This document shows, in pieces, positions 10,624-52,024 of a DNA stretch of 64,000 nucleotides. Below the pieces are notes generated by a model that worked only from the letters and a program-made list of their open reading frames with translations, was not told where the DNA came from and did not search any database. Source of the stretch: Aminobacterium sp. MB27-C1 (GTDB lineage: Bacteria > Synergistota > Synergistia > Synergistales > Aminobacteriaceae); contig NZ_CP133089.1 of NCBI RefSeq assembly GCF_030908405.1, positions 868,001 to 932,000 on the forward strand. Reading direction: 5' to 3'. Position numbers and translations under genes: made by a program. Numbering within the stretch: the stretch's first letter is position 1; each line of letters starts with the position of its first letter.

Positions 10624-10660
10624 CGAGAGGCCGTTGAAAAACGGTCTCTTTTGTTTTTTC
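10624..10660 (+). terminator. Rho-independent terminator
   Basis: The stem AGAGGCCGTT/AACGGTCTCT (one G-U pair) with a GAAA loop is followed by TTTTGTTTTTT, directly downstream of the unknown secreted protein. Confidence 0.85.
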
Positions 10661-29051: not shown

Positions 29052-29089
29052 GTCCGCACAGAACGTTATACCAGAGGATGGTGAGTCGC

Positions 29090-29956
29090 ATGACGACCGG
29101 AACGAGAGAAACACTGAAAGAGCTTTCTCTGGACATTGTGCGGAAGTATATGGAAGATAACAACTTCGAAAACATCGCATTACTTGAGGGAGCAACCATA
29201 GTTCATAATATTTACGGAGAAGGTGAAATAGTAAAAGGGGAAATATCCGATAAGGGAATAGCATATCTCCACATTGAATTTAAAGATCACTCCAGCGGCG
29301 CAGCTCTCCTTAAAAAATTCCCCACAAAAAATGTAGTAGAAGCTTTCTTTTCACGTCTTCATATCGCTCCTGAACTTTACTCCAAAATTTGTCCAGAAAA
29401 ACCATGTGATGAAACAGAAAAACGATCTCCTCTCGAAGAGCGGTCAATTCACACCCGGGTACTCGATACAACAGAAACTAATGACGCTGGGAGGTCTCGG
29501 CAGGATATTTTAAAAGAATGCCGAGCTGGAGATCTTGTGCATTTTGTGGCTGAAGAAAAAATGATATTCGTAAAAACCGAGCAAGATGAAATTATTGGCT
29601 TTTTACCAGAAGAAGTAACAGCTCTTGTTCTGCCTGCTATGGAAAAAGAGTTACCAGTTGAAGCCATAATAACGAGCATCCCAAGAGAAGGAATGCCTCG
29701 TAAAAAAGGTTGTCGTCTTGAGGTTTATTTGAATCTTCCTGGTCGAGAAAGGCCAAGCTTGAAAGATTTGGCGGAAAAGAACAGAGGAGGAGAGAAAAAT
29801 CCTCAAGGTGACGATAATGATGCGGTAAGCCCTGAAGAGCGCTCTTGGAACGATCTGGGAGCTGACATAGATGACATGGGTAACGACGACATGGATGTAG
29901 ATATTGATCCATGGGAGGGGTATGAAGGCTTCGAAGATTCTGGTTATGACTCTTAA
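29090..29956 (+). CDS. Unknown protein with a UvrD-C/Tudor-like motif and acidic tail
   Basis: 288 residues, no named family recognised. Residues about 28-85 read GATIVHNIYGEGEIV, a spacer, LHIEFKD and LLKKFPTKNV. This pattern (G-x-V-x-H-x2-Y/F-G-x-G-x-V, then a strand and a late Lys) is that of the C-terminal Tudor-like domain of UvrD/PcrA helicases and of CarD-type folds. Residues about 140-220 form a beta-rich domain (AGDLVHFVAEEKMIFVKTEQ, IIGFLPEEVTAL) with some HIRAN-like flavour. The last 60 residues are very acidic. The start at 29090 is chosen over 29078, which abuts GAGG. A nucleic-acid or polymerase-binding role is a guess. Confidence 0.5.
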   Translation: MTTGTRETLKELSLDIVRKYMEDNNFENIALLEGATIVHNIYGEGEIVKGEISDKGIAYLHIEFKDHSSGAALLKKFPTKNVVEAFFSRLHIAPELYSKICPEKPCDETEKRSPLEERSIHTRVLDTTETNDAGRSRQDILKECRAGDLVHFVAEEKMIFVKTEQDEIIGFLPEEVTALVLPAMEKELPVEAIITSIPREGMPRKKGCRLEVYLNLPGRERPSLKDLAEKNRGGEKNPQGDDNDAVSPEERSWNDLGADIDDMGNDDMDVDIDPWEGYEGFEDSGYDS

Positions 29957-30012: not shown

Positions 30013-31194
30013 GTGTTACGTGTCAAGGAAATACTCGAAATTCCTTGCATGGAGGAATCTATTGTTATAGCGGGGGAACGGGGATTAAACAATCCTGTTC
30101 TCTGTATAGATGTATTAGAGGTGCCAGATGCGGACCAATGGGTGACGCCTGGCACCTTTCTTCTAACAACAGCATACGCCTATAAAGAAGATGTTTCCCG
30201 TTTAGAACGACTGGTGCGTCTTCAAGCTGAAGGTGGCGCTTCCGGCATGGGAATAAAGTTGGGACGCTTTATTCAGGAAGTGCCCCAGGAAGTTTTAAAA
30301 ACAGCTGAAAAAATGGGGTTTCCCATTATTTTATTACCCCCTAAACTTCCCTATGTTCCTGTGATTAAAAAGGTCATGTCTCTTATTTTTGAAAGAGAGC
30401 GTCTCCTTAAGGGGGCTTTAAATAAGCAAGATGTACTAAGACATATGATCGAAGACAACATTTCTCTAGAGGAAAATATAGATTTACTGAAACAACTTAA
30501 TTTATCTCCTTTGGATTTGTGTTGTTTCATGCTTTTAGAAATTCCTAATAATGGTGGAGTTCATAACGTTGTTATTTGGGAACTTGTAGAAAAGATAAAG
30601 GTAAAGTGGCAGGATTTCTTTCTTGTTCAATTTGAAAACATGCTTGGTCTTCTCTTTGTGGTGCAAGATGAGACAAGGTTCTCTGCTGTTAAAGAGTTGG
30701 CTCAGAATGTAGCTTTGTCTTTCCAATCTGAACCAGAGTTACGTTGTGTGAGCATAAGTGGGCTGCATACTCTTGAAAAGGGGATAAAGAAAGCCTATAG
30801 AGAGGCGTTTTTTACTCTTAAAGTTGTGAAGAAGCTTATGAACCAAGAGTCAGGTTTTGTTGATTTTGATAGTCTGCGTCATCTTTCTTTTTGGTATACC
30901 CACCCCGATAGAAAGGAACTTGTTCTAACAAGTCGATTGATACTTGACCCTATTTTAATTTACGATAAAAACAATAATGGTTCTTTGTTACAAACACTTA
31001 AAGTCTTTTTACTAATGGATCGTAATCAGAAAAGAACAGCCGAAGCTTTGCATCTACACAGAAATTCATTGCGTTATCGTTTAAATCAAATAGAAGAAAT
31101 TTTCGGATCTGATATATTTTCTGGTTTTAAGCTTCAAAAACTCTTTTTTGCACTTATCACGTATACACTTCTTGATGATGAAGTTCTTATATAA
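30013..31194 (+). CDS. PucR-family transcription regulator
   Basis: 393 residues. The N-terminal PucR domain (about 1-125, including VTPGTFLLTTAYAYKED and MGFPIILLPPKLPYVPVIKK) is followed by a GGDEF-like degenerate middle. A C-terminal PucR-type helix-turn-helix comes last (NQKRTAEALHLHRNSLRYRL, then NQIEEIFG). PucR proteins usually activate neighbouring catabolic genes for purines, hydantoins or amino acids. GTG start with GAGGAG about 9 bases upstream. The catabolic cluster begins 230 bases downstream on the same strand and is its probable target. Confidence 0.88.
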   Translation: MLRVKEILEIPCMEESIVIAGERGLNNPVLCIDVLEVPDADQWVTPGTFLLTTAYAYKEDVSRLERLVRLQAEGGASGMGIKLGRFIQEVPQEVLKTAEKMGFPIILLPPKLPYVPVIKKVMSLIFERERLLKGALNKQDVLRHMIEDNISLEENIDLLKQLNLSPLDLCCFMLLEIPNNGGVHNVVIWELVEKIKVKWQDFFLVQFENMLGLLFVVQDETRFSAVKELAQNVALSFQSEPELRCVSISGLHTLEKGIKKAYREAFFTLKVVKKLMNQESGFVDFDSLRHLSFWYTHPDRKELVLTSRLILDPILIYDKNNNGSLLQTLKVFLLMDRNQKRTAEALHLHRNSLRYRLNQIEEIFGSDIFSGFKLQKLFFALITYTLLDDEVLI

Positions 31195-31223
31195 ACACTT
31201 TGTGCATTGAGCATAAAGTGTTT
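31193..31223 (+). terminator. Hairpin after the PucR gene
   Basis: A 13-bp stem with one G-U pair (31193-31205 with 31211-31223) starts within the stop codon. T-rich sequence follows but without a clean T run. It separates the regulator from the catabolic cluster. The 31224-31427 gap contains no convincing promoter by eye. Confidence 0.6.
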
Positions 31224-31427
31224 ACCCTTTCTTTGTGTATCAATTCCATTGTTTCCTTTTCTTTTGAACGGTATAAATGTGTGTGTAAATTTCCAGAATA
31301 GTGTTTTTTAAATTGAATATGTTCTCGGTACGTTTCCTGAATATATAACTGCGGATTTAAAAAAATACGCGGACAATTGTGTTTTTGACTTTAAATTTAA
31401 GCACATAAAATTAAAGGAGGGAAAAGT

Positions 31428-32987
31428 ATGAATGAACGCAAGAAACACGTCAAAGCTTTGGAACCACGCACTCTTATTTTAAGTTTAATTGTTTCGGTTC
31501 TTTCCGCTATTATCTGTATGCAAATCATCTCAAGAATAGGTATTACACCAAATACCTCAATTATAGGGGCCATTGTTGCAATGACTCTTGCACGGATTCC
31601 TTTATCATTTTTAAAAGATTTTCGTTCTCTTGATCGGCAAAATTTAGTTCAAACCATGACTTCTGGCGCAGGTTTTGCTGCGGCAAATTGTGGGTTGCTT
31701 TCAGTTGGGATTATGTATGTATTTGGCACTCCCAAATTAATACTTCCAATGTTGATTGGGTCTGGTCTCGCTACCCTAATAGGAATGCACTTTGTTTATA
31801 AAGTCTACGACTCTGACCTTTATCCTGCGGCAGGAGCATGGCCTCCTGGCGTTGCAACAGCTCAAGCCCTTATCGCTGGAGATGAAGGCGGGAAAAAAGC
31901 ACGCCGTCTTTTAGAAGGAGTTCTTGCTGGTGTTGTGGGACGCCATTTTGGGCTTCCTATGGCTGGCATTGGAATAGTCTTTATTGCTAACATTTTTGCC
32001 ATGTCTGCTCTTGGTGTCGGACTTGTGATCCGTGGATACTCCGGAACATTATTTGGTTTCGATCTAGGTAAAACGTATATTCCTCATGGAGTCATGATTG
32101 GGGCGGGTGTAGTTTCTCTTGTTCAGGCTCTTGCTATTATTTTCCGCAGGGGTTCTTCGTCTCGTAATAATAGTGACGGACCTCTTCCCACTGTTTCTCA
32201 TGAAAAAGTAAAACAAACAATTTTCTTCCATACCTTCCTTTTCGGTTTGGGAGCTATCGTTTTGGCTCTTCTAAGCGGTATTTGGGCTGAAATGAGTGTT
32301 GGGAAATTGGTTTTATGGATTGTCTGGACAACCTTCTCTGCCATTGTTGCACCTATTCTTGTTGGCTTAAGCGCTATGCACTCAGGATGGTTCCCGGGGT
32401 TTGCCATCAGTGTTATTTTCTTGAGCCTCGGACTCTTCATGGGCTTCCCTGGAGCTCCCCTTGCCCTTTTAGCTGGATATGTTGCAAGTACGGGTCCTTG
32501 TTTTGCTGATATGGGTTACGACCTCAAGACTGGTTGGATTATTCGTGGAGAGGGAAAAGATTTGGAGTATGAATTAGATGGACGGCGTCAACAGGCGATA
32601 GCAGAAATTGTAGGTGGTTTTGTCTCTGTTGTAACAGTCTTTTTCCTTATGAAGATGCATTTCAGATTGGATATGTTACCTCCAGTAAGCAGAGTTTTTG
32701 CAGCGACAGTACAGGCAGGAGCTAATCCAGATATCCTTCGTCAATTACTCATGTGGAGCGTTGTTGGAGCGATCATTCAGGCTATAGGTGGGGCTAAGCG
32801 TGCTATAGGAATTCTTTTTGCTACGGGTCTTCTTATCAAGAGTCCCTTATATGGAATTGGAGTGCTAGCTGCTGTCATTTGCCGTCTTATTTGGGGTACC
32901 AAATGGATGGAAATGCGAGAAGCAGGTCTTATCGCAGGAGACGGCATTTACGGATTTATTTCTGCAGTTGTAAGAAGCTTTATGTAA
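31428..32987 (+). CDS. OPT-family (oligopeptide/YSL-type) transporter
   Basis: A 519-residue polytopic membrane protein with about 14 hydrophobic segments. OPT-superfamily features include LYPAAGAWPPGVATAQALIA, FGLPMAGIGIVFIANIFAMS and TYIPHGVMIGAGVVSLVQ. Members take up oligopeptides, metal chelates or related small molecules using a proton gradient. AAAGGAGGG lies before the ATG. First gene of a seven-gene co-directed cluster of hydrolases and proteins of unknown function, so it most likely imports their substrate. Confidence 0.85.
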   Translation: MNERKKHVKALEPRTLILSLIVSVLSAIICMQIISRIGITPNTSIIGAIVAMTLARIPLSFLKDFRSLDRQNLVQTMTSGAGFAAANCGLLSVGIMYVFGTPKLILPMLIGSGLATLIGMHFVYKVYDSDLYPAAGAWPPGVATAQALIAGDEGGKKARRLLEGVLAGVVGRHFGLPMAGIGIVFIANIFAMSALGVGLVIRGYSGTLFGFDLGKTYIPHGVMIGAGVVSLVQALAIIFRRGSSSRNNSDGPLPTVSHEKVKQTIFFHTFLFGLGAIVLALLSGIWAEMSVGKLVLWIVWTTFSAIVAPILVGLSAMHSGWFPGFAISVIFLSLGLFMGFPGAPLALLAGYVASTGPCFADMGYDLKTGWIIRGEGKDLEYELDGRRQQAIAEIVGGFVSVVTVFFLMKMHFRLDMLPPVSRVFAATVQAGANPDILRQLLMWSVVGAIIQAIGGAKRAIGILFATGLLIKSPLYGIGVLAAVICRLIWGTKWMEMREAGLIAGDGIYGFISAVVRSFM

Positions 32988-33001
32988 AAGGAGATGTTTA
33001 G

Positions 33002-33658
33002 ATGGAGCATTCACGTCGTCGAATAGCTCTTATTCGGGTCTTGACTTCAAGGGATCCGCAGGTGTTGGAATCACATGGAAAAATTTTGATGGCTCTTTTC
33101 CCTGAATGGGATGTGTGCTCTTACTGCATTCCAGATCAACCGGAAGGCATACATGATGAAGAAACTAAAAAGAGAGCTCTCCCTAAAATTGAGCGACTGG
33201 CTTTTTCTCTTTTGCCTGAAAATTTTGATGGAATTATCGTAAGTTGTGCAGACGATCCAGCAGTAGAGAGTTTGCGACGGCAACTTTCTATTCCTGTAAT
33301 AGGGGCGGGGCGTTCCACAGCTCTTCTTGCTCTTGGAGTTGGAAGACGTGTTGGTGTTATTGGCATAACAGATGAAACTCCAGCAGGAATGAAAGATATT
33401 TTGAAAGATTTTTTAATAAAAGAAATACACCCAAAAGAAGTTCATTCTACTCTTGATCTAATGACTCGTGAAGGAAGAGCTGCTGTTTTGAAAGAAGCAA
33501 TGAATTTAAAAAAGGAAGGCGCTGATGTCATCGCATTGGCTTGTACGGGTATGTCTACGGTTTCTTTAGCATCGGAAATAAAAAAAGAGGTCAATATTCC
33601 TGTTATAGATCCTGTAAGTGCTGAGGGAGCATTAATGTGGGCTACGTTGGGGTTTTAA
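33002..33658 (+). CDS. Asp/Glu/hydantoin racemase family protein
   Basis: 218 residues. Two catalytic-type cysteines sit in the family positions: Cys82 in IIVSCADDPAV and Cys181 in ALACTGMSTVS. A racemase fold is repeated in the two halves (IPVIGAGRSTALLALGVG, IPVIDPVSAEGAL). It would interconvert D and L forms of an amino acid or a hydantoin by a cofactor-free two-base mechanism. AAAGGAG lies before the ATG. Clustered with DUF917 and peptidase-like genes, which favours a hydantoin, cyclic amide or amino-acid substrate. Confidence 0.82.
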   Translation: MEHSRRRIALIRVLTSRDPQVLESHGKILMALFPEWDVCSYCIPDQPEGIHDEETKKRALPKIERLAFSLLPENFDGIIVSCADDPAVESLRRQLSIPVIGAGRSTALLALGVGRRVGVIGITDETPAGMKDILKDFLIKEIHPKEVHSTLDLMTREGRAAVLKEAMNLKKEGADVIALACTGMSTVSLASEIKKEVNIPVIDPVSAEGALMWATLGF

Positions 33659-33676
33659 ACAAATGGAGTTGATGAA

Positions 33677-34750
33677 ATGTCTCAAACAGTTTTGAAGAAG
33701 GAACATGTAGAAGCTGCTGTATTAGGTGGTGCCGTTCTTGGTGGCGGTGGCGGCGGAGCTATGGAACGAGGTCTTGATTTAGGGTGTTTAGCTGTTCAAA
33801 TGGGACGTCCCATTCTTATTGATGCTGAGGATTGTTGTGATGAAAACATTCTCGTTACCTGCTCTGGTGTAGGTGCGCCGGCAGCAAAGGAGGCTTTTGT
33901 TTCTCCACGAGCCTATTGGAGAACAATCGATTTGCTTCAGACACACAATAAAGAGCAAATAGGCGGTCTTATTACTAATGAGTGTGGCGGAAATGCAGTA
34001 GTAAATGGTTGGCTTCAAGCCGCTCTTTTAGATTTACCCATAGTTGATATTCCCTGTAACGGTAGAGCTCATCCTACAGGAGTAATGGGATCAATGGGGT
34101 TACAAAAAGATAAAAATTACGTGTCAATTCAGGCTTTTGCCGGAGGGAATCCAGATAACAATACATATGTAGAGGGATGTGTTTCTGGAGGACTTGCCGA
34201 GACATCTGCTCTAGTTCGCCAGGCAGCCGTTCAGGCTCGAGGTCTTGTTGGTGTAGCTCGTAACCCTGTAAAAGCTTCTTTTGCCAAAATGAATGGAGCT
34301 CCAGGAGGCGTAGCAATGTCTATAAAGTTAGGGCGAGCTATGTTGAATGTAAAAGATAAGGGAGCGGAGAAGCTTGTTTCTTCCGTTGTAGAGTTTTTAG
34401 GGGGAGAGATTATTACGCGCGGGACTGTTCAAAATCTGGAGCTTGAGACAGCAGGAGGTTTTGATGTGGGGCGTGTGGATATAGACGACATTGCTCTTAC
34501 TTTCTGGAATGAGTATATGACCCTCGAAAGAACAAATGGAGAACGTCTGGGTACGTTCCCAGATCTTATTATGACAATGGATGGGCATTCAGGCATGCCA
34601 GTAACCAGTGCAGAAATAGAAAAAGGTCAATCTATTTATGTTATTACGGTTCCCAAAACAAATTTATGTTTAGGTGAAGGAATGCGCTGCATAGATCTTT
34701 TACGCGATGCAGAACGCATTATCCATAAAGATATATCGTCGTATCAATAA
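33677..34750 (+). CDS. DUF917 family protein
   Basis: A 357-residue protein with the hallmark glycine run near the N-terminus (AVLGGAVLGGGGGGAME) and later GGLITNECGGNAVVNGW, NGRAHPTGVMGSMG and DVGRVDIDDIAL. I place it in DUF917. Part of that family is described as S-methyl-thiohydantoin desulfurase-like and other members occur beside hydantoinases. The protein lacks a signal peptide. GGAG lies 8 bases before the ATG. Activity here is inferred only from family and neighbours. Confidence 0.75.
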   Translation: MSQTVLKKEHVEAAVLGGAVLGGGGGGAMERGLDLGCLAVQMGRPILIDAEDCCDENILVTCSGVGAPAAKEAFVSPRAYWRTIDLLQTHNKEQIGGLITNECGGNAVVNGWLQAALLDLPIVDIPCNGRAHPTGVMGSMGLQKDKNYVSIQAFAGGNPDNNTYVEGCVSGGLAETSALVRQAAVQARGLVGVARNPVKASFAKMNGAPGGVAMSIKLGRAMLNVKDKGAEKLVSSVVEFLGGEIITRGTVQNLELETAGGFDVGRVDIDDIALTFWNEYMTLERTNGERLGTFPDLIMTMDGHSGMPVTSAEIEKGQSIYVITVPKTNLCLGEGMRCIDLLRDAERIIHKDISSYQ

Positions 34751-34764
34751 AAGGAGTGGTGAGT

Positions 34765-35700
34765 ATGTCATTTACTAGAACTCTTGAAGCTTTAGACCTT
34801 CTTGATCGCTCAGATGTGAGCGGTGAAATGGTAAAAGATGTTTTTCTTAAAGCTGGAATTAAGGAAGTAGAAGTAAAAAAAATTGAAGGTCCCAAGGGAC
34901 ATACAGATTTTATAAAAGCGGTTATTCCTGGGAGTCACGGAAAGCGCATGAATGGAACGGCTCCCACATTAGGTATCATTGGTCGACTAGGCGGAATAGG
35001 TGCCCGTCCGGAGCGTATTGGACTTGTTTCTGATGGAGATGGAGCAGTGGCTGCTGTCGCAACGGTTTTAAAAATGGCAAAGATGCTTTCTGTTGGCGAT
35101 GTACTTCCTGGAGATGTCATAATTTCTACCCATATTTGTCCCGATGCTCCCACTCAGCCTCATGAACCTGTGCCTTTTATGGGATCCCCTGTTGATATGA
35201 CTACAATGAATCAGCAAGAAGTTGATCCTGAAATGGATGCTATTTTAATTGTGGATACTACTCGTGGCAACAGAGTCATAAATCATAAAGGGTTTGCTAT
35301 CTCTCCCACCGTTAAAGAGGGATATATTTTGCGAGTAAGTGAAGATATTCTTTCTATTATGGAAATCGTTACAGGAGAGCTTCCAGTTGTTTTTCCTCTT
35401 ACTATCCAGGATATTACACCTTATGGCAATGGCCTCTACCACTTGAATAGCATATTGCAACCTTCAACTGCGGCTAAGGCCCCATGTATTGGAATTGCTA
35501 TTACGTCTCATTCTGCTGTTCCAGGGTGCGCTACAGGTGCAAGTCATGCAACAGATATAGAACAGGTCGTTCGTTTTAATATTGAGGTAGCCAAGAATTT
35601 TACTAGAAAGAGCTGTTCTTTTTACAACACAAAAGAATTCGAATTGCTTATTGATTTATACGGTCCTATGAATCATTTTCAGACTGCTGGTAAAAAATAG
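34765..35700 (+). CDS. DUF1177 family protein
   Basis: 311 residues, strongly resembling DUF1177: IIGRLGGIGARPERIGLVSD, VIISTHICPDAPTQPHEPVP and GIAITSHSAVPGCATGASHA. The conserved His, Cys and Asp residues in these segments suggest a metal or nucleophile centre, but no reaction is known to me. The ATG at 34765 has AAGGAG 8 bases upstream; a GTG at 34756 is the other possible start. The gap after the DUF917 gene is 14 bases. DUF1177 genes commonly accompany AroM and OPT genes in anaerobes, as here. Confidence 0.78.
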   Translation: MSFTRTLEALDLLDRSDVSGEMVKDVFLKAGIKEVEVKKIEGPKGHTDFIKAVIPGSHGKRMNGTAPTLGIIGRLGGIGARPERIGLVSDGDGAVAAVATVLKMAKMLSVGDVLPGDVIISTHICPDAPTQPHEPVPFMGSPVDMTTMNQQEVDPEMDAILIVDTTRGNRVINHKGFAISPTVKEGYILRVSEDILSIMEIVTGELPVVFPLTIQDITPYGNGLYHLNSILQPSTAAKAPCIGIAITSHSAVPGCATGASHATDIEQVVRFNIEVAKNFTRKSCSFYNTKEFELLIDLYGPMNHFQTAGKK

Positions 35701-35703
35701 ATA

Positions 35704-36540
35704 ATGTATAAAGCTCAAATAACATTGACTGTTCCAATGGGAAAACGGCTGATTGCGAAAGCAATCGCCGTTCTTCCTGAAGTACAAAGAGCGTTTAGAG
35801 AAGGTCGGATTCTTTTAAAAGGGGGAACGACAGTTTCTGCAGTTGCTGAAGAGCTTGTTGGTTCTCCCTTGCGGATTAGCGGAAGAGTTACACCTCGCGG
35901 AACGGTATCGTGCAATAAATCTCTCCCATCTTTCCCTCATAGTATTCTTATTTATAACGGACAAATTCAGAACGTTGACCAATGTCTATCACAAGTTGTC
36001 GCTGAAATGAATGCTTCCGATATAGCTATATGCGGGGCTAATCTTGTTGATGTGCACAAACAGGCAGCCATGATGGCAGGAGCACCTCTGGGAGGTGTCC
36101 CCGGGCAGGTGATTTCCACTTTGCGATCTGAAGGAATTATTACTTATATTGCGGCTGGGCTTGAGAAGTTTGCTCCCTGTTTTCTTGATGAAGCCATACT
36201 TGAAAGCGGACGGAAAAAAATCAATACATCTATGGGCATGTCGGTAGGTCTTATCCCTGTTCCAGGTTGTGTCGTAAGTGAAATTGAAGCTTTTTCAATC
36301 CTTGCATCTGTGAAAGCATACATTATTGGCAGGGGGGGAATTAGTGGAGCAGAAGGGGCTACAACGTTTGTCATAAGTGGGGAAAAAGACGAGGTCAAAA
36401 AAATTATTAATATCATTTCTGTTTTGCCAGAAGTTCCTGAAAGTGGGAGTGATGGTTCCCTCGATGAATGTTTACATGGGGGCCCGGGGTGTAAAAGTCA
36501 TCTGGGATGTTGGCACCGTGATCGTATATTGAAGAGGTGA
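35704..36540 (+). CDS. Conserved-looking protein of unknown function with C-terminal Cys/His cluster
   Basis: 278 residues that I cannot assign to a family. The start (YKAQITLTVPMGKRLIAKAI) precedes glycine-rich segments (ILLKGGTTVSAVAEELV, AGAPLGGVPGQVISTL, GRGGISGAEGATTFVISG) suggesting an alpha/beta enzyme. The end carries CLHGGPGCKSHLGCWH, a Cys-x6-Cys-x5-Cys-Trp-His pattern that could bind metal. There is no signal peptide or membrane segment. It begins 4 bases after the DUF1177 stop without a clear ribosome site, so translational coupling is likely. It overlaps nothing downstream; AroM starts 5 bases after its stop. Confidence 0.6.
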   Translation: MYKAQITLTVPMGKRLIAKAIAVLPEVQRAFREGRILLKGGTTVSAVAEELVGSPLRISGRVTPRGTVSCNKSLPSFPHSILIYNGQIQNVDQCLSQVVAEMNASDIAICGANLVDVHKQAAMMAGAPLGGVPGQVISTLRSEGIITYIAAGLEKFAPCFLDEAILESGRKKINTSMGMSVGLIPVPGCVVSEIEAFSILASVKAYIIGRGGISGAEGATTFVISGEKDEVKKIINIISVLPEVPESGSDGSLDECLHGGPGCKSHLGCWHRDRILKR

Positions 36541-36545
36541 TACAC

Positions 36546-37217
36546 ATGAAACGAATTTTGGGAACCGTAACTATAGGCCAAGCTCCGCGAGTAGATATAA
36601 TTCCAGATATCTTGCCTATTCTAGGGGAGAATCTAAATGTTGTTGAATCTGGTGCTTTAGATGGTTTGACGAAAGAAGATATTGCAAAAATGGCACCTCA
36701 AAAGGGAGATTACGTTCTTGTAACGAGAATGAAAGATGGGACTTCGGTTACAGTTGCAGAGCGTTATATCACACCTAGAGTTGAAGAGAAAATTCGAGAC
36801 CATTTCCAACATAATATTCCTGTTGTTCTTCTCCTTTGTACCGGTGAATTCCCTTCTTTTGGTGAAGAGGGACTTTTGATTCGGCCTCAACGTATTCTTT
36901 ACAATGTAGTACAGGCAGTGGCTGAAAATAGAAAATTAGGTGTCATTACTCCTTCTGAAGATCAGATAGCACAATCTAAGAAAAGGTGGGAAACTGTGTC
37001 AGGAAGAGTATCAGTTGTTGCTGCTTCTCCATATGCAGACTCTTTGCAACTTGATAATGCTATAGAGAAGCTACAAGAATATAATCCAGATATAGCTATT
37101 ATGGATTGCATGGGCTATACAATAAAAATGCAGCAGAAAGTAAGAGACAGCCTTGGAAAACCTGTATTTCTAGCTCGAAGTGTTGTGGCCAGAGTGATTA
37201 AAGATATGTTTGGATAG
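36546..37217 (+). CDS. AroM-family protein
   Basis: 223 residues matching AroM: TVTIGQAPRVDIIPDILPIL near the start, VESGALDGLTKEDIAKM, VVLLLCTGEFPSF, and AIMDCMGYTIKMQQKVRD near the end. AroM folds like Asp/Glu racemases and keeps two cysteine sites (LLLCTGEF, MDCMGY), although its reaction is unknown. GAGGTG lies 6 bases before the ATG at 36546. A second racemase-like fold in one operon with the bona fide racemase-family gene is notable. Confidence 0.8.
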   Translation: MKRILGTVTIGQAPRVDIIPDILPILGENLNVVESGALDGLTKEDIAKMAPQKGDYVLVTRMKDGTSVTVAERYITPRVEEKIRDHFQHNIPVVLLLCTGEFPSFGEEGLLIRPQRILYNVVQAVAENRKLGVITPSEDQIAQSKKRWETVSGRVSVVAASPYADSLQLDNAIEKLQEYNPDIAIMDCMGYTIKMQQKVRDSLGKPVFLARSVVARVIKDMFG

Positions 37218-37230
37218 GGGGCAAGGGTAA

Positions 37231-38184
37231 ATGGATTTTGAGAAAATGATTAATGTGTCGAAGTGCCTTCTCACAGATAATATGGGACTTCGTCGAGAAG
37301 AAAAATTATTGATAATATGCGATAGCAAGACTGTAAATATTGCTAAAAGTCTTTTTGAGGCGGGGCAATTACTAGGAAGCGAATCTCTTCTGGTTCAAAT
37401 TTCGCCTATGAAAAAAAATGGAGAGGAACCATCTGCACGTGTGCGTGAATTGATGTTAGCTTCAGATGTTGTCATTATTCCTACAAGTAAGTCTATGACT
37501 CATACCCACGCCAAAAAAGATGCATGTGCTGCTGGAGCTCGTGTTGCTACCATGCCTGGAATTACTGAGGATATGTATTTTAATGGGCCTATTACTGCAG
37601 ATTATAAAGAAGTTGAAATTTTAACAAAAAAACTCACATCTCTTCTTGACAAGGCTAAAGAGGCTGAGATACGAAAAGACGGCTGTTCCCTTACGTTGTC
37701 TCTTGACGGGAGAAAAGGTATTCCGAGTACAGGTGTATATCGGGAAAAAGGGCAAGCTGGCAACTTACCATCTGGTGAAGCTTTTATTGCTCCCGTTGAG
37801 GGTAGCGCTTCAGGAGAAGTTGTTATCGACGGTTCATTTGCTGGAATTGGAGTCTTAAGTGCTCCCTTGAAACTTTTTTTTGAGAAAGGGCAGCTTGTCG
37901 ATGCGAAGGGTCCTGAGCGTCAAAAACTCTTTGACCTTCTGGGAGATAATCCTTTGGCAAGAAATGTAGCTGAACTTGGAATAGGAACTAATAATAAAGC
38001 TCGAGTCACAGGGGTTATTCTCGAAGATGAAAAAATATATGGAACTGTACATATTGCCCTTGGCAGTAACGATACCTTTGGAGGAACAGTTGCGGCAGGA
38101 ATCCATGTAGATGGAGTAATTACCAACCCTGAACTTTACATTGATGAAAAATGTATTCTTTCTGAAGGCAAAATCCATATTTAA
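37231..38184 (+). CDS. M29-like (aminopeptidase T-type) metallopeptidase
   Basis: 317 residues, somewhat shorter than the roughly 370-410 of classical M29 enzymes. The second half has the expected metal-ligand landscape: GNLPSGEAFIAPVEGSASGE, VAELGIGTN, YGTVHIALGSNDTFGG and IHVDGVI. The first half (LLIICDSKTVNIAKSLFEAG, ASDVVIIPTSKSMTHTHAKK) matches the N-terminal domain. It would release N-terminal residues from peptides or open amide bonds in a related small molecule. GGGCAAGGG precedes the ATG. Last gene of the cluster; a strong terminator follows. Confidence 0.7.
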   Translation: MDFEKMINVSKCLLTDNMGLRREEKLLIICDSKTVNIAKSLFEAGQLLGSESLLVQISPMKKNGEEPSARVRELMLASDVVIIPTSKSMTHTHAKKDACAAGARVATMPGITEDMYFNGPITADYKEVEILTKKLTSLLDKAKEAEIRKDGCSLTLSLDGRKGIPSTGVYREKGQAGNLPSGEAFIAPVEGSASGEVVIDGSFAGIGVLSAPLKLFFEKGQLVDAKGPERQKLFDLLGDNPLARNVAELGIGTNNKARVTGVILEDEKIYGTVHIALGSNDTFGGTVAAGIHVDGVITNPELYIDEKCILSEGKIHI

Positions 38185-38202
38185 CTATATTATTTTGTTT
38201 CA

Positions 38203-38234
38203 GAAGGCGGGAATTCAGTTTCCCGCCTTTTTTG
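38203..38234 (+). terminator. Rho-independent terminator of the OPT-DUF917-DUF1177 cluster
   Basis: The stem AAGGCGGGAA/TTCCCGCCTT with a short loop is followed by TTTTTG. Confidence 0.9.
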
Positions 38235-38287
38235 TTAAAATAGATAAGTTAACGTCGACTTTAATAAAAAAAAGGAGGTAGGTTTGA

Positions 38288-38377
38288 ATGGACGACGTTC
38301 CTGGTAGCAGTACATGTTTAAAATCTGCTGCGTTATTCAAACAGACCTCTACACGTCACTTTTTTTCAGAGGTCTGA
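38288..38377 (+). CDS. Possible 29-residue leader peptide upstream of mgtE
   Basis: An ATG with a strong ribosome site (AAAGGAGG, 9 bases upstream) opens a frame of 29 codons ending 34 bases before the mgtE start. The peptide starts MDDVPGSSTCLKSA and has no membrane segment. Its last third overlaps the alternative hairpins at 38339-38386, so ribosome position could decide which hairpin forms. Similar leader-peptide control of magnesium transporter genes is known in enterobacteria (mgtL, mgtP). Homology is not claimed. No promoter could be found between the upstream terminator and this frame. Confidence 0.45.
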   Translation: MDDVPGSSTCLKSAALFKQTSTRHFFSEV

Positions 38378-38386
38378 GGTCTGTTT
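38339..38386 (+). promoter_or_regulatory. Two mutually exclusive hairpins before mgtE
   Basis: AAACAGACCTC (38339-38349) is perfectly complementary to GAGGTCTGTTT (38376-38386), while the overlapping AGACCTCT (38343-38350) pairs with AGAGGTCT (38368-38375). A repeated GAGGTCTG unit creates the choice. This is the layout of an attenuator or translation switch, 26 bases before the mgtE start. Confidence 0.55.
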
Positions 38387-38411
38387 AGACACTGAAAAGG
38401 AGTGATATCCG

Positions 38412-40147: not shown

Positions 40148-41671
40148 ATGAAAAAGGGAAAGTTTTTTAGTCTTACTGTAGTCGCGATTTTAGTCGCATT
40201 ATTCTGTGTTGCTTCTGTTGGCTTGGCAGCAGAGAAAAAAGACACCTTGGTGGTAGCTAATATTTATGATGCAAAAACTCTTGATCCTCAAGCTACCAAT
40301 GACGTTGCATCTTCTGGAGCTATGATGCAGATTTATGAAACACTTGTTGCGCTTGATGATGATAACAACGTTGTTCCTCAGCTTGCTGAAAAGTGGGAGA
40401 AACTTGATGACCTTACATACAAGTTTTATCTCCTGAAGGGTGTTAAATTCCATAATGGTGAAGAACTTAAGGCTAGCGATGTGAAATACACTATCGACCG
40501 TGCCATGTCTCCCAAGGGTGCCGCTATTCAGAACTATTCTGGAGAAGTCGAGAAGGTTGAAGTTCTTGATGATTATACATTGATTATCAAGACCAAGAAA
40601 CCGTCCACCCCCTTCCTTGCCTCTCTGAGCCACACATGGGGCAGCATTATGAATGCTAAAGCAGTTGAAGAGGCTGGAGATAACTATGGTATGCATCCAA
40701 TCGGAACCGGCCCCTTTAAGTTTTTAAGCTGGGCAAAAGGTGATCGTTTGACCCTTGAGCGTTTTGAAGACTTCCATGGTAAGAAACCTGCCTATAAGAC
40801 CCTTGTTATGCGTTCTATTACAGAGCCCACAAGCCGTACAATCGAGCTTGAGAGCGGAGCTGTAGATATCGCTTATCAGATCACAACTAATGATATTAAG
40901 AGAGTTGAAGAGAACCCTAACCTCAAATTGATGAGAGTTATGGATAACTCCACATCATATCTTGGCTTTAACTGTGAAAAAGCTCCTTTCGATAACGTGA
41001 AAGTTCGCCAGGCTATCAACCTTGCTATTGATACAGTGGGTATTAACAAAGCTGTCTATCGTGGAATAGGACAGGCTCCAACTGGACCAATTGCTCCCAA
41101 TGTAAAATACTTTGATAAATCACAGCCTGTACATGAGCAGGATATGGAGACAGCTAAAAAGCTTCTTGAAGAAGCTGGCTACAAAGATGGATTCAAAGCT
41201 CAGATCTGGACAAATGACAAGAAAGAAAGAGTTGACATGGCTACCATCATTCAGAGTCAGCTTTCTGAGATTGGCATTGATGTTGAGATTAAAGTTCTTG
41301 AGTGGGGAGCTTATCTCGATGGTTTGAAGGCCAAACAGCATGATATGTTCATCGTTGGCTGGGTTTCTACAGTTCCAGATCCTGAATTTGCCGTTGGTGG
41401 CGTTTTCCACTCTTCCATGAAAGGTAAAATGAACTTCTCTTTCTTTGGAGATCCTAAAGTTGACGAACTTATTGAAAAAGGTAAAACTCTTCCTGATGGT
41501 GCAGATCGTGAAGCTGTGTATGTTGAATTGCAGAAAGAGCTTAATGAAAAACGCCCCTGGGTTTACCTTCTCAATGATGAGCAGATCTGTGGAATGCAGA
41601 AAAATGTAAAAGGATTCAGACCCAGTCCCAGAGGATATCACGAGCTTTACAACGTCTATTTTGAAGACTAA
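40148..41671 (+). CDS. Peptide ABC transporter substrate-binding protein (family 5, DppA/OppA-like)
   Basis: 507 residues. The signal peptide (SLTVVAILVALFCVASVGLA) ends with a small-residue cleavage site rather than a lipobox. The mature protein opens TLVVANIYDAKTLDPQATND, and family 5 landmarks follow (YKFYLLKGVKFHNGEELKAS, YGMHPIGTGPFKF). It captures di- or oligopeptides in the periplasm. AAGGAG is found upstream of the ATG. The following permease and ATPase genes complete the transporter. A hairpin after the stop probably keeps its mRNA more abundant than the rest. Confidence 0.93.
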   Translation: MKKGKFFSLTVVAILVALFCVASVGLAAEKKDTLVVANIYDAKTLDPQATNDVASSGAMMQIYETLVALDDDNNVVPQLAEKWEKLDDLTYKFYLLKGVKFHNGEELKASDVKYTIDRAMSPKGAAIQNYSGEVEKVEVLDDYTLIIKTKKPSTPFLASLSHTWGSIMNAKAVEEAGDNYGMHPIGTGPFKFLSWAKGDRLTLERFEDFHGKKPAYKTLVMRSITEPTSRTIELESGAVDIAYQITTNDIKRVEENPNLKLMRVMDNSTSYLGFNCEKAPFDNVKVRQAINLAIDTVGINKAVYRGIGQAPTGPIAPNVKYFDKSQPVHEQDMETAKKLLEEAGYKDGFKAQIWTNDKKERVDMATIIQSQLSEIGIDVEIKVLEWGAYLDGLKAKQHDMFIVGWVSTVPDPEFAVGGVFHSSMKGKMNFSFFGDPKVDELIEKGKTLPDGADREAVYVELQKELNEKRPWVYLLNDEQICGMQKNVKGFRPSPRGYHELYNVYFED

Positions 41672-41729
41672 AAGTTCATGGTGGTAGTGCCTCGTTATTG
41701 TTATTTCTTAAGTTTTTGAGTTTAAATTA

Positions 41730-41763
41730 ATGGTTGCAGGAGCTGAAATGTTCCTGCAACCAT
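41730..41763 (+). other. Intercistronic stem-loop after the peptide-binding protein gene
   Basis: A perfect 12-bp stem (ATGGTTGCAGGA and complement) with a 10-base loop lies between the binding-protein and permease genes and has no T tract. Expected role: partial termination or protection of the upstream mRNA. Confidence 0.7.
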
Positions 41764-41784
41764 CGTGTTTCAGGAGGAAAACGG

Positions 41785-42714
41785 ATGCTCAAGTATATTT
41801 TTAAGCGAATTATATCTCTTATCCCTGTTCTTATAGGAGTCGCTTTCATCGTCTTCTCTCTGCTTTATTTCACGCCTGGTGATCCGGCCAGAATGGTTCT
41901 TGGTGATATGGCTACAGAAGAAGCTCTTCAGGCGTTTAGAGAGACAGAAGGGCTAAATGACCCCTTTATTGTTCAATTTGGCAGATATCTGTATAAAGCG
42001 ACTACTCAAGCAGATATTGGCCGTTCATATGTGACCAAAAGACCTGTAACAAACGAAATAATGACAGTTTTCCCAGCTACATTGAAACTTGCTGCCTTTT
42101 CTATGTTTCTTGCAGTTATTTTTGGCATTCCCTTCGGAATAATTTCTGCTATAAAACAATACTCGTGGTTTGATTCGATAACTATGATATTTGCCATGAT
42201 TGGAATATCCATGCCTGTCTTCTGGTTAGGTGTTTTGCTTATACTTTTCTTCTCAGTTCGGCTTAATTGGTTGCCATCGTCAGGATTTGGAACTTTTAGT
42301 GCCATGATCCTGCCTTCTATTTCATTGGCTGCACAAGGAGTAGCAATTGTTACTCGTATGACACGTTCGACGATGCTAGAGGTTATACGACAGGATTATA
42401 TTCGTACCGTACGAGCAAAGGGCCAAAAAGAATCACTGGTCATTTGGCGTCATGCTTTGCCGAATGCCTTGATTCCCGTTATCACAATTGCTGGTATTCA
42501 GTTTGGTCAGCTTTTAGGCGGAGCTGTTTTGACAGAATCAATATTCTCTATTCCTGGAGTTGGGCGTTTGATGGTAGAAGCTATTAAAATGAGAGACTTC
42601 CCAGTTGTGCAAGGTGGAGTTTTGTACATTGCCGTAGCTTTTAGTTTGGTCAACCTCCTTGTGGATTTGATTTATGCATGGATCGACCCGCGCATAAAAG
42701 CTCAGTACAGATAA
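41785..42714 (+). CDS. Peptide ABC transporter permease (DppB-like)
   Basis: 309 residues with six membrane segments. It starts MLKYIFKRIISLIPVLIGVA, the usual DppB opening, and includes TPGDPARMVLG and the EAA-loop region IRTVRAKGQKESLVIWRHAL that contacts the ATPases. CAGGAGG lies 8 bases before the ATG at 41785; the open frame extends upstream through the hairpin but has no ribosome site there. Confidence 0.94.
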   Translation: MLKYIFKRIISLIPVLIGVAFIVFSLLYFTPGDPARMVLGDMATEEALQAFRETEGLNDPFIVQFGRYLYKATTQADIGRSYVTKRPVTNEIMTVFPATLKLAAFSMFLAVIFGIPFGIISAIKQYSWFDSITMIFAMIGISMPVFWLGVLLILFFSVRLNWLPSSGFGTFSAMILPSISLAAQGVAIVTRMTRSTMLEVIRQDYIRTVRAKGQKESLVIWRHALPNALIPVITIAGIQFGQLLGGAVLTESIFSIPGVGRLMVEAIKMRDFPVVQGGVLYIAVAFSLVNLLVDLIYAWIDPRIKAQYR

Positions 42715-42728
42715 TCGGAGGGTACACG

Positions 42729-43592
42729 ATGAGTCAGATGAAAAAGAGAAAAATGGGGAACTTCGGAGAAATTATGCGTCGTTTAAAGAAGAACCGTCTT
42801 GCCATGTTTGGTTTAACAATAGTTGTTCTTCTCTTCATTACGGCGCTCTTTGCTGATTTTATTGCTCCATACAGCTATGCAAAGCAGCATTTAAGCGATG
42901 CCTTCCAAGCTCCCAACAGTAAATATATTTTAGGAACAGATGAGTTTGGTCGTGATATTTTCAGCCGTATTGTCTATGGATCTCGAATTTCCTTACAGGT
43001 AGGATTTATAGCAGTTGGATTGGCTGTTGTCGTTGGTGGCTTCTTGGGAGCAGTATCCGGCTTTTATGGTGGAAAAATTGATAACCTTATTATGCGGGCA
43101 ATGGATATATTGCTTTCCATTCCTCAAATTCTATTGGCCATTGCTATAGCGGCATCTTTAGGGCCTGGACTTTTCAACCTTATGATTGCCGTAGGTATTT
43201 CCTCGATTCCGAGCTATGCTCGAATTGTGCGCAGCGCTGTTTTGTCAATTCGCAACCAGGAGTTTGTTGAAGCAGCTAAAGCGATGGGATCAAGTGATTT
43301 TAGAATTATTATGAAGCATATCCTGCCAAATAGTATGGCACCCATTATTGTTCAGGCAACTTTAGGAGTAGCTTTTGCCATTTTAACGGCAGCTGGTTTA
43401 AGCTTCATCGGGTTAGGAATTCAGCCTCCCATGCCAGAGTGGGGAGCCATGCTTTCGGGAGGACGAGGTTATATTCGTGATTATCCATATATGACCCTTT
43501 TCCCTGGTTTGGCGATTATGATTACCATTCTTGCTTTGAATTTCCTTGGTGACGGTCTTCGCGATGCCTTAGATCCGAAATTAAAGCGTTAG
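42729..43592 (+). CDS. Peptide ABC transporter permease (DppC-like)
   Basis: 287 residues. A DppC-type N-terminus (RRLKKNRLAMFGLTIVVLLF) precedes ILGTDEFGRDIFSRIVYGSR and an EAA loop (EFVEAAKAMGSSDFRIIMKH). Heterodimer partner of the preceding permease. CGGAGGG lies 6 bases before the ATG at 42729. Confidence 0.94.
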   Translation: MSQMKKRKMGNFGEIMRRLKKNRLAMFGLTIVVLLFITALFADFIAPYSYAKQHLSDAFQAPNSKYILGTDEFGRDIFSRIVYGSRISLQVGFIAVGLAVVVGGFLGAVSGFYGGKIDNLIMRAMDILLSIPQILLAIAIAASLGPGLFNLMIAVGISSIPSYARIVRSAVLSIRNQEFVEAAKAMGSSDFRIIMKHILPNSMAPIIVQATLGVAFAILTAAGLSFIGLGIQPPMPEWGAMLSGGRGYIRDYPYMTLFPGLAIMITILALNFLGDGLRDALDPKLKR

Positions 43593-43611
43593 AGTAAGAG
43601 AGGGACGTTTT

Positions 43612-44604
43612 ATGACAGAAAAAAAAGATTTTTTACTGGATATACAGAATCTTACAGTTCATTATGAAACTGATAGCGGTGTCGTTCATGCAGTTGAAGG
43701 ATTGAATCTTCAGCTTGGACATGGTGAGTCATTGGGTTTTGTCGGCGAAACAGGAGCAGGAAAAACTACAACCGCTTTAGCGATTATGCAGCTTATTCCA
43801 AATCCCCCCGGAAAAATTCTTAATGGCAACATCATTTTTGATGGCCAGAATTTAAATACATTGAATGAAGAAGAGAAACGCCACATTCGAGGTGGCAAAA
43901 TAGCAATGATTTTCCAGGATCCCATGACATCTCTTAACCCTGTCATCCCTGTTGGAGAACAGATTGCTGAAATGATTGAATTGCACCAGAACGTAACAAA
44001 AGATGAAGCTTTTAAAAAAGCAGTTCAAATGTTAGAACTTGTGGGAATCAGGCCGGAACGTGCGAAAGATTTTCCCCACCAATTCAGTGGAGGAATGCGT
44101 CAGAGAGTGGTTATCGCTATTGCTCTAGCATGTGATCCTACCCTTCTAATAGCTGATGAACCGACAACAGCTCTAGATGTTACTATACAGGCTCAGGTTT
44201 TGGAACTAATGAAGGAGCTTAAGAAAGAATTCAACACTTCCATGATCATGATTACCCATGATTTAGGAGTTGTGGCTGAGATTTGCGATAAAGTAGCCAT
44301 TATGTATGCAGGAAGTGTCGTGGAGTATGCTGATACGCGTGTTCTTTATACGAATCCGCTGCACCCATATACCAATGGCCTTTTTAACTCTATTCCTGAT
44401 CTTGATGAAGATGAGGAAGAATTGAAGGTTATTCAGGGACTAATGCCAGACCCAACGAACTTGCCTTCTGGGTGTACATTCCATCCTCGATGCCCTCTGG
44501 CTCAACCTGAGTGTTCACAAAAGAAGCCAGAAATGATCGAGATTGAGCCTGGACATTTTGTAGCGTGCCCCGTTTGTTGCAACGCTTTTGTGAAGAAGGG
44601 GTAG
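43612..44604 (+). CDS. Peptide ABC transporter ATP-binding protein (DppD-like)
   Basis: 330 residues with Walker A GETGAGKTT, Q-loop IFQDPMTSLNPV, signature FSGGMRQRV, Walker B LLIADEPTTALD and the switch His in ITHDLG. The C-terminal oligopeptide/dipeptide extension carries cysteines (SGCTFHPRCPLAQPECS) typical of DppD/OppD and often linked to an iron-sulfur cluster. Confidence 0.94.
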   Translation: MTEKKDFLLDIQNLTVHYETDSGVVHAVEGLNLQLGHGESLGFVGETGAGKTTTALAIMQLIPNPPGKILNGNIIFDGQNLNTLNEEEKRHIRGGKIAMIFQDPMTSLNPVIPVGEQIAEMIELHQNVTKDEAFKKAVQMLELVGIRPERAKDFPHQFSGGMRQRVVIAIALACDPTLLIADEPTTALDVTIQAQVLELMKELKKEFNTSMIMITHDLGVVAEICDKVAIMYAGSVVEYADTRVLYTNPLHPYTNGLFNSIPDLDEDEEELKVIQGLMPDPTNLPSGCTFHPRCPLAQPECSQKKPEMIEIEPGHFVACPVCCNAFVKKG

Positions 44605-44615
44605 GAGGAAACAAG

Positions 44616-45590
44616 ATGAATGGAAGCAGAGAAAAATTAATTGAAGTCAATCACTTGAAAAAGTATTTCCCAACAAAGAAAGGGATGCTTCACGCAGTAG
44701 ACGATGTGTCGTTTTTTGTTTACGAGGGGGAGACTCTTGGATTAGTTGGGGAATCTGGATGCGGTAAATCAACATTGGGACGCGTTATGATCCGCCTTCT
44801 TGACGCTACTGATGGAGAAGTTATCTATAGAGGGGAAAATATTTTAAAGTACAACAAGAGACAGATGAAAGATCTGCGAAAAGATGTTCAGATTGTTTTC
44901 CAAGATCCATATTCATCTCTTAACCCTCGTCTTTCTGTATCAGAACTCATTGCTGAACCGTTGATCGTTAATAACGTGTATAACGGATCAAAGGCAGAGC
45001 GTGATGCTCGTATTCGCACTCTCATGGATACGGTAGGTCTGGCACAACGCCTTGTTCATGCCTACCCTCATGAGCTTGATGGTGGTAGACGTCAGCGAAT
45101 TGGTATAGCACGTTCTTTGGCGTTGGATCCAGATTTCATAGTTCTCGATGAACCTGTTTCGGCCCTTGATGTATGTATTCAGGCTCAGATTTTGAATCTG
45201 TTGAATACCCTTAAAAAGGAAAAAGGATTTACCTATATTTTCATTGCTCACAACCTCAGCGTTGTAAAGCACGTTTCTGACCGTATAGCTGTTATGTATT
45301 TAGGAAAGATCGTAGAGCTTTCAGATTATCGCACTGTATTTGCTGATCCTCTTCATCCTTATACGCAAGCTCTTCTTTCCGCTATACCTATTCCGAAGGT
45401 GGATCAACAGAGAGATCGAATTATTCTCGAAGGAGATGTTCCAAGTCCTATCGAGCCGCCTGAAGGATGCCGTTTTGCTGGTCGTTGCCGTTATAGGAAA
45501 GATATTTGTTCTCAAAAAACACCGGAGCTTCGGGAAATAGAAAAAGGACATTTTATAGCTTGCCATTTTGCCCGAAACCTTTCGATGTAG
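44616..45590 (+). CDS. Peptide ABC transporter ATP-binding protein (DppF-like)
   Basis: 324 residues. Walker [22 protein letters not shown] and Walker [17 protein letters not shown] are standard. The signature reads [10 protein letters not shown] instead of the usual LSGGQ-type sequence: Asp replaces Ser in the C-loop. This unusual substitution might weaken ATP hydrolysis at the site that loop completes. The C-terminal Cys-containing extension ([17 protein letters not shown]) is present. GGAGG lies before the ATG at 44616. Confidence 0.92.
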
Positions 45591-45608
45591 TTTATACGGA
45601 GGTGTTTC

Positions 45609-46646
45609 ATGTTGCGTATTGATATGGGGTATGTAAATTCACTTATGCTTGAGCTTTTGTCCATTCCTTCTGTAGGTGGAGATTGTGAAGAGGCAATGGC
45701 AAGAGTGGAAGAGGAATTCAATCGTTTTAATATTTCTGTAAGCCGTACAAATAAAGGCGCACTCATAGGAACAATGAAAGGAACAGATGACGATCACCAT
45801 GTTCTTATTGCGTCTCATGTAGATACCCTTGGAGCTATTGTGCGTGAAATAAAAAGTAACGGACGCCTTAAAATGCTTCAGATAGGTGGCTTTGCCTGGA
45901 ATTCAGTGGAAGGGGAAAATGTTCTTGTCAGAACAATGGATGGAACAGAATATTCTGGTTCCATTCTTCCTTATAAAGCTTCAATACACGGTTTTTCAGA
46001 CGAAGTACGTGATATGAAACGTGATGACGACTCGATGGAACTTCGTCTTGATGAGCTTGTGAAGACAAAAGAAGACGTTTTGAATTTAGGAATTCATGTT
46101 GGTGACCTTATCTTCTTCCAGCCACGAGCGGTTATTACCCCTTCTGGTTTTGTGAAATCTCGCCATTTAGACGATAAAGCGTGTGTTGCCCTCATGTTCG
46201 GAGCTATCAAATCCCTTTGCGATGAGGGAAAAATGCCATCTCGCACCACTCATTTTTACGTTACCAATTACGAAGAGATGGGACATGGAATTTCGCGTAT
46301 TCCTGAGAAAGTTACAGAATTTGCAGCTCTGGATATAGGCATAGTTACAGAAGCATCTGCTTCAGAAGAGACAGCTGTAACTATTTTGGCCAAAGATAGC
46401 CGCACTCCCTATGACCTGTCGTTCAGAAAGCGTCTTGTCGCTTTAGCTGAAAAGTATGGAATCGACTATAGAGTGGATGTTCACTATCGTTATGGAAGCG
46501 ACGCGAGTATTGCAGCCATAGCCGGATTCGACGTTAACTTTGCTTGTTTCGGCCCTGGTGTTGATGCAACGCATCATTATGAACGTACTCACGTAAAGGC
46601 GATAGAAGAGACTGCCAAACTTCTTACTGCTTACATAAGCGATTAA
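45609..46646 (+). CDS. M42-family metallo-aminopeptidase
   Basis: 345 residues. M42 metal and catalytic positions are present: His-Asp in IASHVDTLGA, the bridging Asp in SRHLDDKACVALM, the Glu pair in NYEEMGHG, Asp in LDIGIVTEA and the late His in DATHHYERTH. These enzymes form large tetrahedral complexes that trim short peptides. GGAGG lies before the ATG, 18 bases after the ABC transporter operon, so imported peptides would be cleaved by it. Confidence 0.88.
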   Translation: MLRIDMGYVNSLMLELLSIPSVGGDCEEAMARVEEEFNRFNISVSRTNKGALIGTMKGTDDDHHVLIASHVDTLGAIVREIKSNGRLKMLQIGGFAWNSVEGENVLVRTMDGTEYSGSILPYKASIHGFSDEVRDMKRDDDSMELRLDELVKTKEDVLNLGIHVGDLIFFQPRAVITPSGFVKSRHLDDKACVALMFGAIKSLCDEGKMPSRTTHFYVTNYEEMGHGISRIPEKVTEFAALDIGIVTEASASEETAVTILAKDSRTPYDLSFRKRLVALAEKYGIDYRVDVHYRYGSDASIAAIAGFDVNFACFGPGVDATHHYERTHVKAIEETAKLLTAYISD

Positions 46647-46688
46647 TTACCAAAAAACGATATTGGATATTAATGGAGGATTGAAAAT

Positions 46689-51894: not shown

Positions 51895-52024
51895 GGCGGT
51901 CTTCTCCAGGAGATTCAGCCCTGTGCGGCAAAACACCGCGAATCCTGTCAGGCCCGGAAGGGAGCAGCAGTAAGCGGAGCGTTTTGGGTGCCACAGGAAG
52001 CTGGGTCTCCTAGAGAGGACCGCC
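51895..52024 (+). ncRNA. ffs: Bacterial signal recognition particle RNA (4.5S-type)
   Basis: The near-invariant SRP domain IV core is present at 51947-51975 (GTCAGGCCCGGAAGGGAGCA followed by GCAGTAAGC), the binding site for Ffh. The ends pair (GGCGGTC at 51895-51901 with GACCGCC at 52018-52024), as do the adjoining bases (CTTCTCC and GGAGA-type segments), giving one long rod of about 130 nucleotides without an Alu domain. It guides membrane-protein translation together with Ffh. The 5' and 3' ends are inferred from pairing. No T-run terminator was seen after it. Confidence 0.93.

Follow-up and report, generated by a model that had tools for sequence, protein, structure and literature searches.

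In the 64,000-nucleotide stretch of the Aminobacterium sp. MB27-C1 genome analyzed here (the window), a regulator gene is followed by seven tightly packed genes whose combination raises two questions: whether they form a single unit, and on what kind of compound such a unit would act. An earlier note, made from the sequence alone, had proposed that they import a small peptide-like or cyclic (hydantoin-like) molecule, epimerise and open it, and release amino acids by an undescribed route.

Architecture of the operon and its flanks

The host belongs to Synergistota and has a genome of 2.43 Mb in a single contig. Positions 30013-38184 of the window hold eight plus-strand open reading frames, namely a PucR-type regulator gene followed, in this order, by genes for an OPT family importer, a hydantoin-racemase-like protein (Race), a DUF917 protein, a DUF1177 protein, a 278-residue orphan, AroM and an M29-like peptidase; the order and positions agree with the earlier note, and so do the families assigned by Pfam and NCBIfam searches. 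The gaps among the seven genes are 14, 18, 5, 3, -4 and 13 bases, five of them within the range of 3-18 described before and the remaining one really a 4-base overlap. The regulator (30013..31194, + strand; PucR N-domain PF07905 and HTH_30 in Pfam) is likely an activator of the operon. Both hairpins mentioned in the earlier note were recovered. The first, in the gap between pucR and the OPT gene (31192..31224, + strand; AU-rich, 14 bp, -17.3 kcal/mol, z -6.2), has no clean T-run and is a candidate weak terminator or mRNA end signal; a comparison of this gap with Rfam gave no match to a riboswitch or other known RNA. The second is a strong intrinsic terminator at the operon end (38202..38231, + strand), where a 12-bp hairpin (-19.8 kcal/mol, z -5.7) is followed by a T-run.

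In a sister species, the segment 29957..38391 is missing between the same two neighbours. In the window, the left neighbour occupies 29078-29956, homology resumes at 38392 and the right neighbour, mgtE, begins at 38412; in the sister genome (L141, reverse complement), the left neighbour ends at 10367 and mgtE starts at 10652, with about 285 bp between them. Because of this empty site, the region from pucR through the M29 gene forms a single gain/loss unit, and pucR, which is missing there, belongs inside it. Loss in the sister species is as possible as gain in the lineage of the window.

Several other features were observed nearby. A short leader 5' of mgtE (ATGGACGACGTTCCTGGTAGCAG...; window 38232-38411) is kept in the sister genome (10500-10651, reverse complement); it had no match in Rfam and could act as a leader-peptide or Mg-responsive element. 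Positions 40148-47915 hold a full Dpp-type ABC operon (substrate-binding protein, two permeases and two ATPases) and then M42 and PepT-like M20 peptidases, which, with the OPT operon just upstream, makes this region a peptide-use hotspot. On the minus strand, 48012-51231 encodes a PuuD-like class-I glutaminase-type hydrolase and two M20 amidohydrolases resembling AbgA/AbgB, as judged by eye. The bacterial small SRP RNA (Rfam RF00169) lies at 51912-52010.

Conservation, spread and mobility of the gene set

The DUF1177 query had at least 584 relatives, and occurrence was counted in the best 80 loci, which cover Bacillota, Synergistota, Pseudomonadota, Actinomycetota, other bacterial phyla and Archaea. 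All these counts are minima from loci picked by DUF1177, several of which end at contig ends. AroM was present in 69 of the 80 loci, the racemase in 46 and DUF917 in 38. An importer of either type was found in 62 loci, OPT in 45 and Dpp permease in 20. With regard to peptidases, M29 occurred in 43 loci, M20 in 12 and PepE in 9; the type varies, yet one peptidase is usually present. A same-strand PucR regulator lay near 33 of the loci and an IclR regulator near 24. Importers were distributed as OPT alone (42), Dpp alone (17), both (3) or neither (18), so that the two are nearly exclusive (Fisher p 2e-5, a value that ignores shared ancestry) and the Dpp ABC transporter takes the place of OPT in other lineages. 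Since two unrelated oligopeptide importers fill one slot, there is good evidence that peptide-like uptake belongs to the function of the module.

In a less biased test, independent searches of 399 genomes of one class found DUF1177 in 42 genomes, AroM in 37 and the B subunit gene of cyclodipeptide oxidase (CDOB) in 6. DUF1177 was found in 35 of the 37 AroM genomes, an overlap of 35 compared with approximately 4 expected (hypergeometric p about 7e-40 with the centre genome left out and shared ancestry ignored). In the same genomes, AroM matches lay within 1 kb of a DUF1177 gene in 23 of 42 cases and within 12 kb in 35 of 42. Thus, the grouping of AroM and DUF1177 is far beyond chance. The earlier note had staked its proposal on these genes staying together across genomes, and they do, except for the 278-residue protein, which was present in only 8 of the 80 loci and stands outside the conserved core. 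This co-occurrence and the gap at the corresponding place in L141 bear out the view that the seven genes form one catabolic unit.

Within the phylum, 27 of 188 genomes carry DUF1177, the two other genomes of the genus being without it, and none was detected in E. coli by DNA similarity. On a conjugative plasmid of Klebsiella pneumoniae (NZ_CP057460.1, L157), a variant with PepE, in the order IclR-OPT-DUF1177-AroM-PepE-racemase, lies between transposase genes, and other plasmid copies are present in Paenibacillus, Planococcus and a haloarchaeon. It is well established that the module is real, conserved and mobile, and that it spans bacteria and archaea. As for the copy in the window, no foreign base composition was seen, GC and GC3 of the operon being those of its flanks, and no obvious terminal repeats were found at the island edges in the short sequences compared. 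OPT and AroM trees placed this copy beside other Synergistota. A recent jump from Bacillota was considered and, given these trees and the GC/GC3 values, is not supported.

Protein families and their predicted activities

The OPT family importer (31428..32987, + strand; 519 aa; PF03169, E 1e-18, 67.5 bits against a cut-off of 25.8) is predicted to bring in a peptide-like substrate, and relatives of the OPT/YSL type carry metal chelates. The next protein, Race (33002..33658, + strand), belongs to the Asp/Glu/hydantoin racemase family (PF01177); its nearest PDB entry is the hydantoin racemase of P. horikoshii (2eq5, E 5e-65), and its catalytic-type cysteine pair, C82 and C181, is invariant in 16 sequences. 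AroM (36537..37217, + strand; PF07302) is an orphan protein of E. coli. As a single sequence it retrieved nothing useful from the PDB; its profile had a sole match, again 2eq5 (E 0.009). When aligned with the racemase (hhalign probability 96.5), C101 of AroM falls on C82 and C191 on C181, and both AroM cysteines are invariant in 21 sequences. Race thus has the two cysteines of the racemase superfamily, and AroM has both the homology and the two cysteines, which suggests that AroM would be a second epimerase of the module; a similar view had been drawn from predicted structures (PMC11055893).

The DUF917 protein (33677..34750, + strand; S-Me-THD family, PF06032/PF20906) is a candidate ring-opening enzyme. 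The earlier note had called part of this family desulfurase-like, and the family assignment holds; the name desulfurase is not transferable, because the protein reached 290.5 bits against a curated cut-off of 440 (NF058529) and 258 against 450 (NF058532). A weak match to 2o3i was the result of the PDB comparison.

For the DUF1177 protein (34756..35700, + strand; PF06675, E 6e-134), a literature search brought up a single paper, which was not relevant. Against the PDB, its single sequence gave nothing useful and its profile only chance-level matches to RNase P protein. Its AF2 model (pLDDT 87) matched M28/M17/M20 peptidases in Foldseek (E about 1e-8, probability 1.00), with 1cp7, 1amp and 4h2k at E values of about 1e-8 to 1e-7 and TM of about 0.5. 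D93, H126, C128, H136, E155, D167 and H229 are invariant and could form a metal site. In an hhalign comparison with M20 that was not significant, D93 and D167 fell at ligand positions, E-E read A-P and no H-x-D was present; the proposed ligands are tentative for that reason. The protein is thus a candidate amidohydrolase on the basis of its model, and its hydrolase activity is uncertain because the H-x-D and E-E motifs typical of M20/M28 enzymes are not recognisable.

The M29-like metallopeptidase (37231..38184, + strand; Peptidase_M29, PF02073) has 317 aa and a short N-domain. E183, E248, H274, H292 and D294 are invariant in 21 sequences, and E183, E248 and H292/D294 are in register with PepS; the E, E, H and H-x-D residues are the metal ligands of M29 aminopeptidases. 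The protein was also aligned with NicX, a dioxygenase that belongs to the wider family. We regard the protein as a candidate terminal dipeptidase or aminopeptidase.

Finally, the 278-residue orphan (35704..36540, + strand), which carries a KGGTTVS motif, had no match in Pfam, NCBIfam or PDB sequences. Its AF2 model is of moderate quality (pLDDT 75), and a weak Foldseek match to ribose-1,5-bisphosphate isomerase/eIF2B (E 7e-5, TM about 0.35) makes a NagB/eIF2B-like (ISOCOT-type) fold possible. Among the loci examined, it occurs in Synergistota and clostridial-type lineages, which we regard as anaerobic, and in some cases its gene is located away from the core of the operon. It is an optional accessory.

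Function of the operon and its relation to known systems

Cyclodipeptide oxidase (CDO) is encoded by genes for a nitroreductase (CDOA) and a DUF6092/PF19585 protein (CDOB), and complete Bacilli versions of the operon also carry it. CDO lies directly 3' of M29 in full PucR-Race-OPT-DUF917-DUF1177-AroM-M29 operons (loci L057, L062/L152 and L148), and L151 has the complete set, CDO included, in a changed order. Among the 80 DUF1177 loci, CDO was in the same stretch in only three; the nitroreductase and DUF6092/CDOB genes adjoin the full operon in L052, L057 and L062. Of the regions found independently through CDO, L148 and L151 hold the whole gene set, L149 holds PucR, Race, AroM, M29 and CDO, and L150 has AroM alone beside CDO. 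All five independent CDO-positive genomes contained DUF1177 and AroM (p about 1e-5, ignoring shared ancestry). A search of the window's own genome for CDOB (PF19585) gave no match; the CDO companions racemase, DUF917, AroM, OPT and peptidase are all in the window, and they occur together in the CDO-bearing relatives. In a Clostridium-labelled MAG (L154), Thermococcus (L153) and Symbiobacterium (L156), CDO belongs to a different cluster, where no DUF1177 was seen and which has Dpp ABC, DUF917-like, M29-like or racemase-like genes, a parallel CDO module.

From the gene set, its unity, the importer swap, the CDO linkage, the folds and the conserved residues, we infer the reactions and the substrate. 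The best explanation, to which we give a probability of about 0.48, is that the operon is inducible and lets the cell take up and degrade cyclic dipeptides (2,5-diketopiperazines) or close relatives. PucR would switch the operon on, and OPT, or Dpp ABC in other lineages, would import the substrate. Race and AroM, each with its cysteine pair, would epimerise acidic C-alpha positions and make either stereoisomer usable; DUF917 and/or DUF1177 would hydrolyse the ring amide; and the linear dipeptide would be cut by the M29-like enzyme or, in other copies, by M20 or PepE, into amino acids, which the Synergistota host may ferment. Aerobic Bacilli add CDO; anaerobes like the host do without it and often have the 278-residue orphan. 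The sequence of import, epimerisation, ring opening and peptidase action in the earlier note is the most natural reading. As for the substrate, cyclic dipeptides are favoured over plain hydantoins because of the linkage to CDO, Dpp transporters and PepE/M20/M29 peptidases. The closeness of Race to a hydantoin racemase likewise speaks for a cyclic compound, and the peptidase fold of the DUF1177 model and the cysteine pair of AroM speak for ring opening and epimerisation. In addition, breakdown of cyclo(Asp-Phe), cyclo(Asp-Asp) or cyclo(Ala-Ala) by unassigned enzymes is on record for strains of Paenibacillus and Bacillus (PMC3852281), and Paenibacillus, some members of which attack cyclo(Asp-Phe) and cyclo(Ala-Ala), is rich in module clusters. 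Against the cyclic-dipeptide reading stand the unrecognisable M20/M28 motifs of DUF1177, the lack of CDO in the window genome, its presence in only 3 of the 80 DUF1177 loci and the hydantoinase-type genes beside some copies; moreover, CDO clusters may alter cyclic dipeptides instead of breaking them down. It is rather doubtful that the boldest form of this reading holds as a whole, namely a mobile nutrient pathway for cyclic dipeptides across bacteria and archaea, in which Race and AroM would be epimerases, DUF1177 a new metal-dependent diketopiperazine-opening amidase, and the CDO-free anaerobe variant would bring a new 278-residue enzyme family.

The main rival, a pathway for hydantoins or cyclic ureides, seems unlikely. 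Substituted hydantoins would enter through OPT/ABC and be racemised at C5 by Race and AroM, DUF917 would yield N-carbamoyl amino acids by ring opening, and the carbamoyl group would be taken off by DUF1177 or an M20/nitrilase enzyme. The proximity of Race to 2eq5 and of DUF917 to thiohydantoin desulfurases agrees with this, PucR regulators have a known connection with the use of allantoin, and a module of hydantoinase (HyuA), NCS1 permease and nitrilase (CN-hydrolase) adjoins loci L011, L019, L020, L075 and plasmid L160. However, of the 80 loci only 6 had HyuAB and 5 had NCS1 and nitrilase; importers of oligopeptides and peptidases (M29, PepE) occur much more often, and the core has no carbamoylase. 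A clearly improbable alternative is that the operon acts on linear peptides whose bonds or stereochemistry are atypical (isoaspartyl, D-amino acid or N-acyl-aspartyl) and whose D residues the racemases would repair before cleavage by DUF1177 and M29/PepE/M20; it would accommodate the Asp/Glu racemase superfamily membership, the PepE (Asp-X dipeptidase family) of the enterobacterial form and the aspartoacylase-family and ArgE/DapE-type enzymes of other forms, and leaves the CDO linkage and the hydantoin-type DUF917 enzyme unexplained, with PepE in only 9 of 80 loci. Least probable is a role in altering, detoxifying or making a small molecule derived from a peptide (a signal, metallophore or antibiotic), in which OPT would take up a metal chelate and not a nutrient, as its OPT/YSL relatives and the biosynthetic CDO of Streptomyces might suggest, since the operon has no synthetase gene, its importer, several hydrolases and regulator look catabolic, and Dpp replaces OPT.

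If the cyclic-dipeptide reading is true, the purpose of many non-biosynthetic cyclodipeptide oxidases would be explained. The module offers a short, conserved list of candidate enzymes for cyclic-peptide breakdown, suggests roles for three families (DUF1177, AroM and the 278-residue orphan), and is carried by culturable hosts such as Paenibacillus, Bacillus and Kosakonia, which makes the question testable.

Compared with known systems, the operon shares with Hyu pathways a Cys-pair hydantoin-racemase-like enzyme and a candidate ring-opening enzyme, whereas it has an oligopeptide importer and a peptidase instead of HyuA/HyuB, a dihydropyrimidinase-type hydantoinase and a carbamoylase. DUF917 shares the two-domain family of the S-Me-THD desulfurases (NF058529, NF058532) over its whole length, but scores under their cut-offs in an operon without ergothioneine-type genes. 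Similarly, the DUF1177 model has the fold of M28/M17/M20 metallopeptidases without detectable sequence homology or their canonical motifs. The closest relatives are the CDO clusters without a synthase (non-CDPS), around which a 2024 survey (PMC11055893) found hydantoin racemase (PF01177), DUF917, AroM, OPT, dipeptide ABC transporter, EamA and peptidase genes enriched; it proposed purine metabolism or biosynthesis for them and described CDO as a biosynthetic enzyme in Streptomyces. The full Bacilli operon ends in CDOA-CDOB, whereas the window copy has no CDO. The module was thus partly anticipated, and the claim of an undescribed route holds in that no described route was found, although the survey had noted racemase, DUF917, AroM and OPT around CDO. 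Its main text is without DUF1177, and it describes no 278-residue family. To this picture our analysis adds DUF1177 as a core member with a peptidase fold in its model, the exchange of OPT for Dpp importers, the alignment of the two AroM cysteines with those of the racemase, and a variant that lacks CDO and brings in a new orphan.
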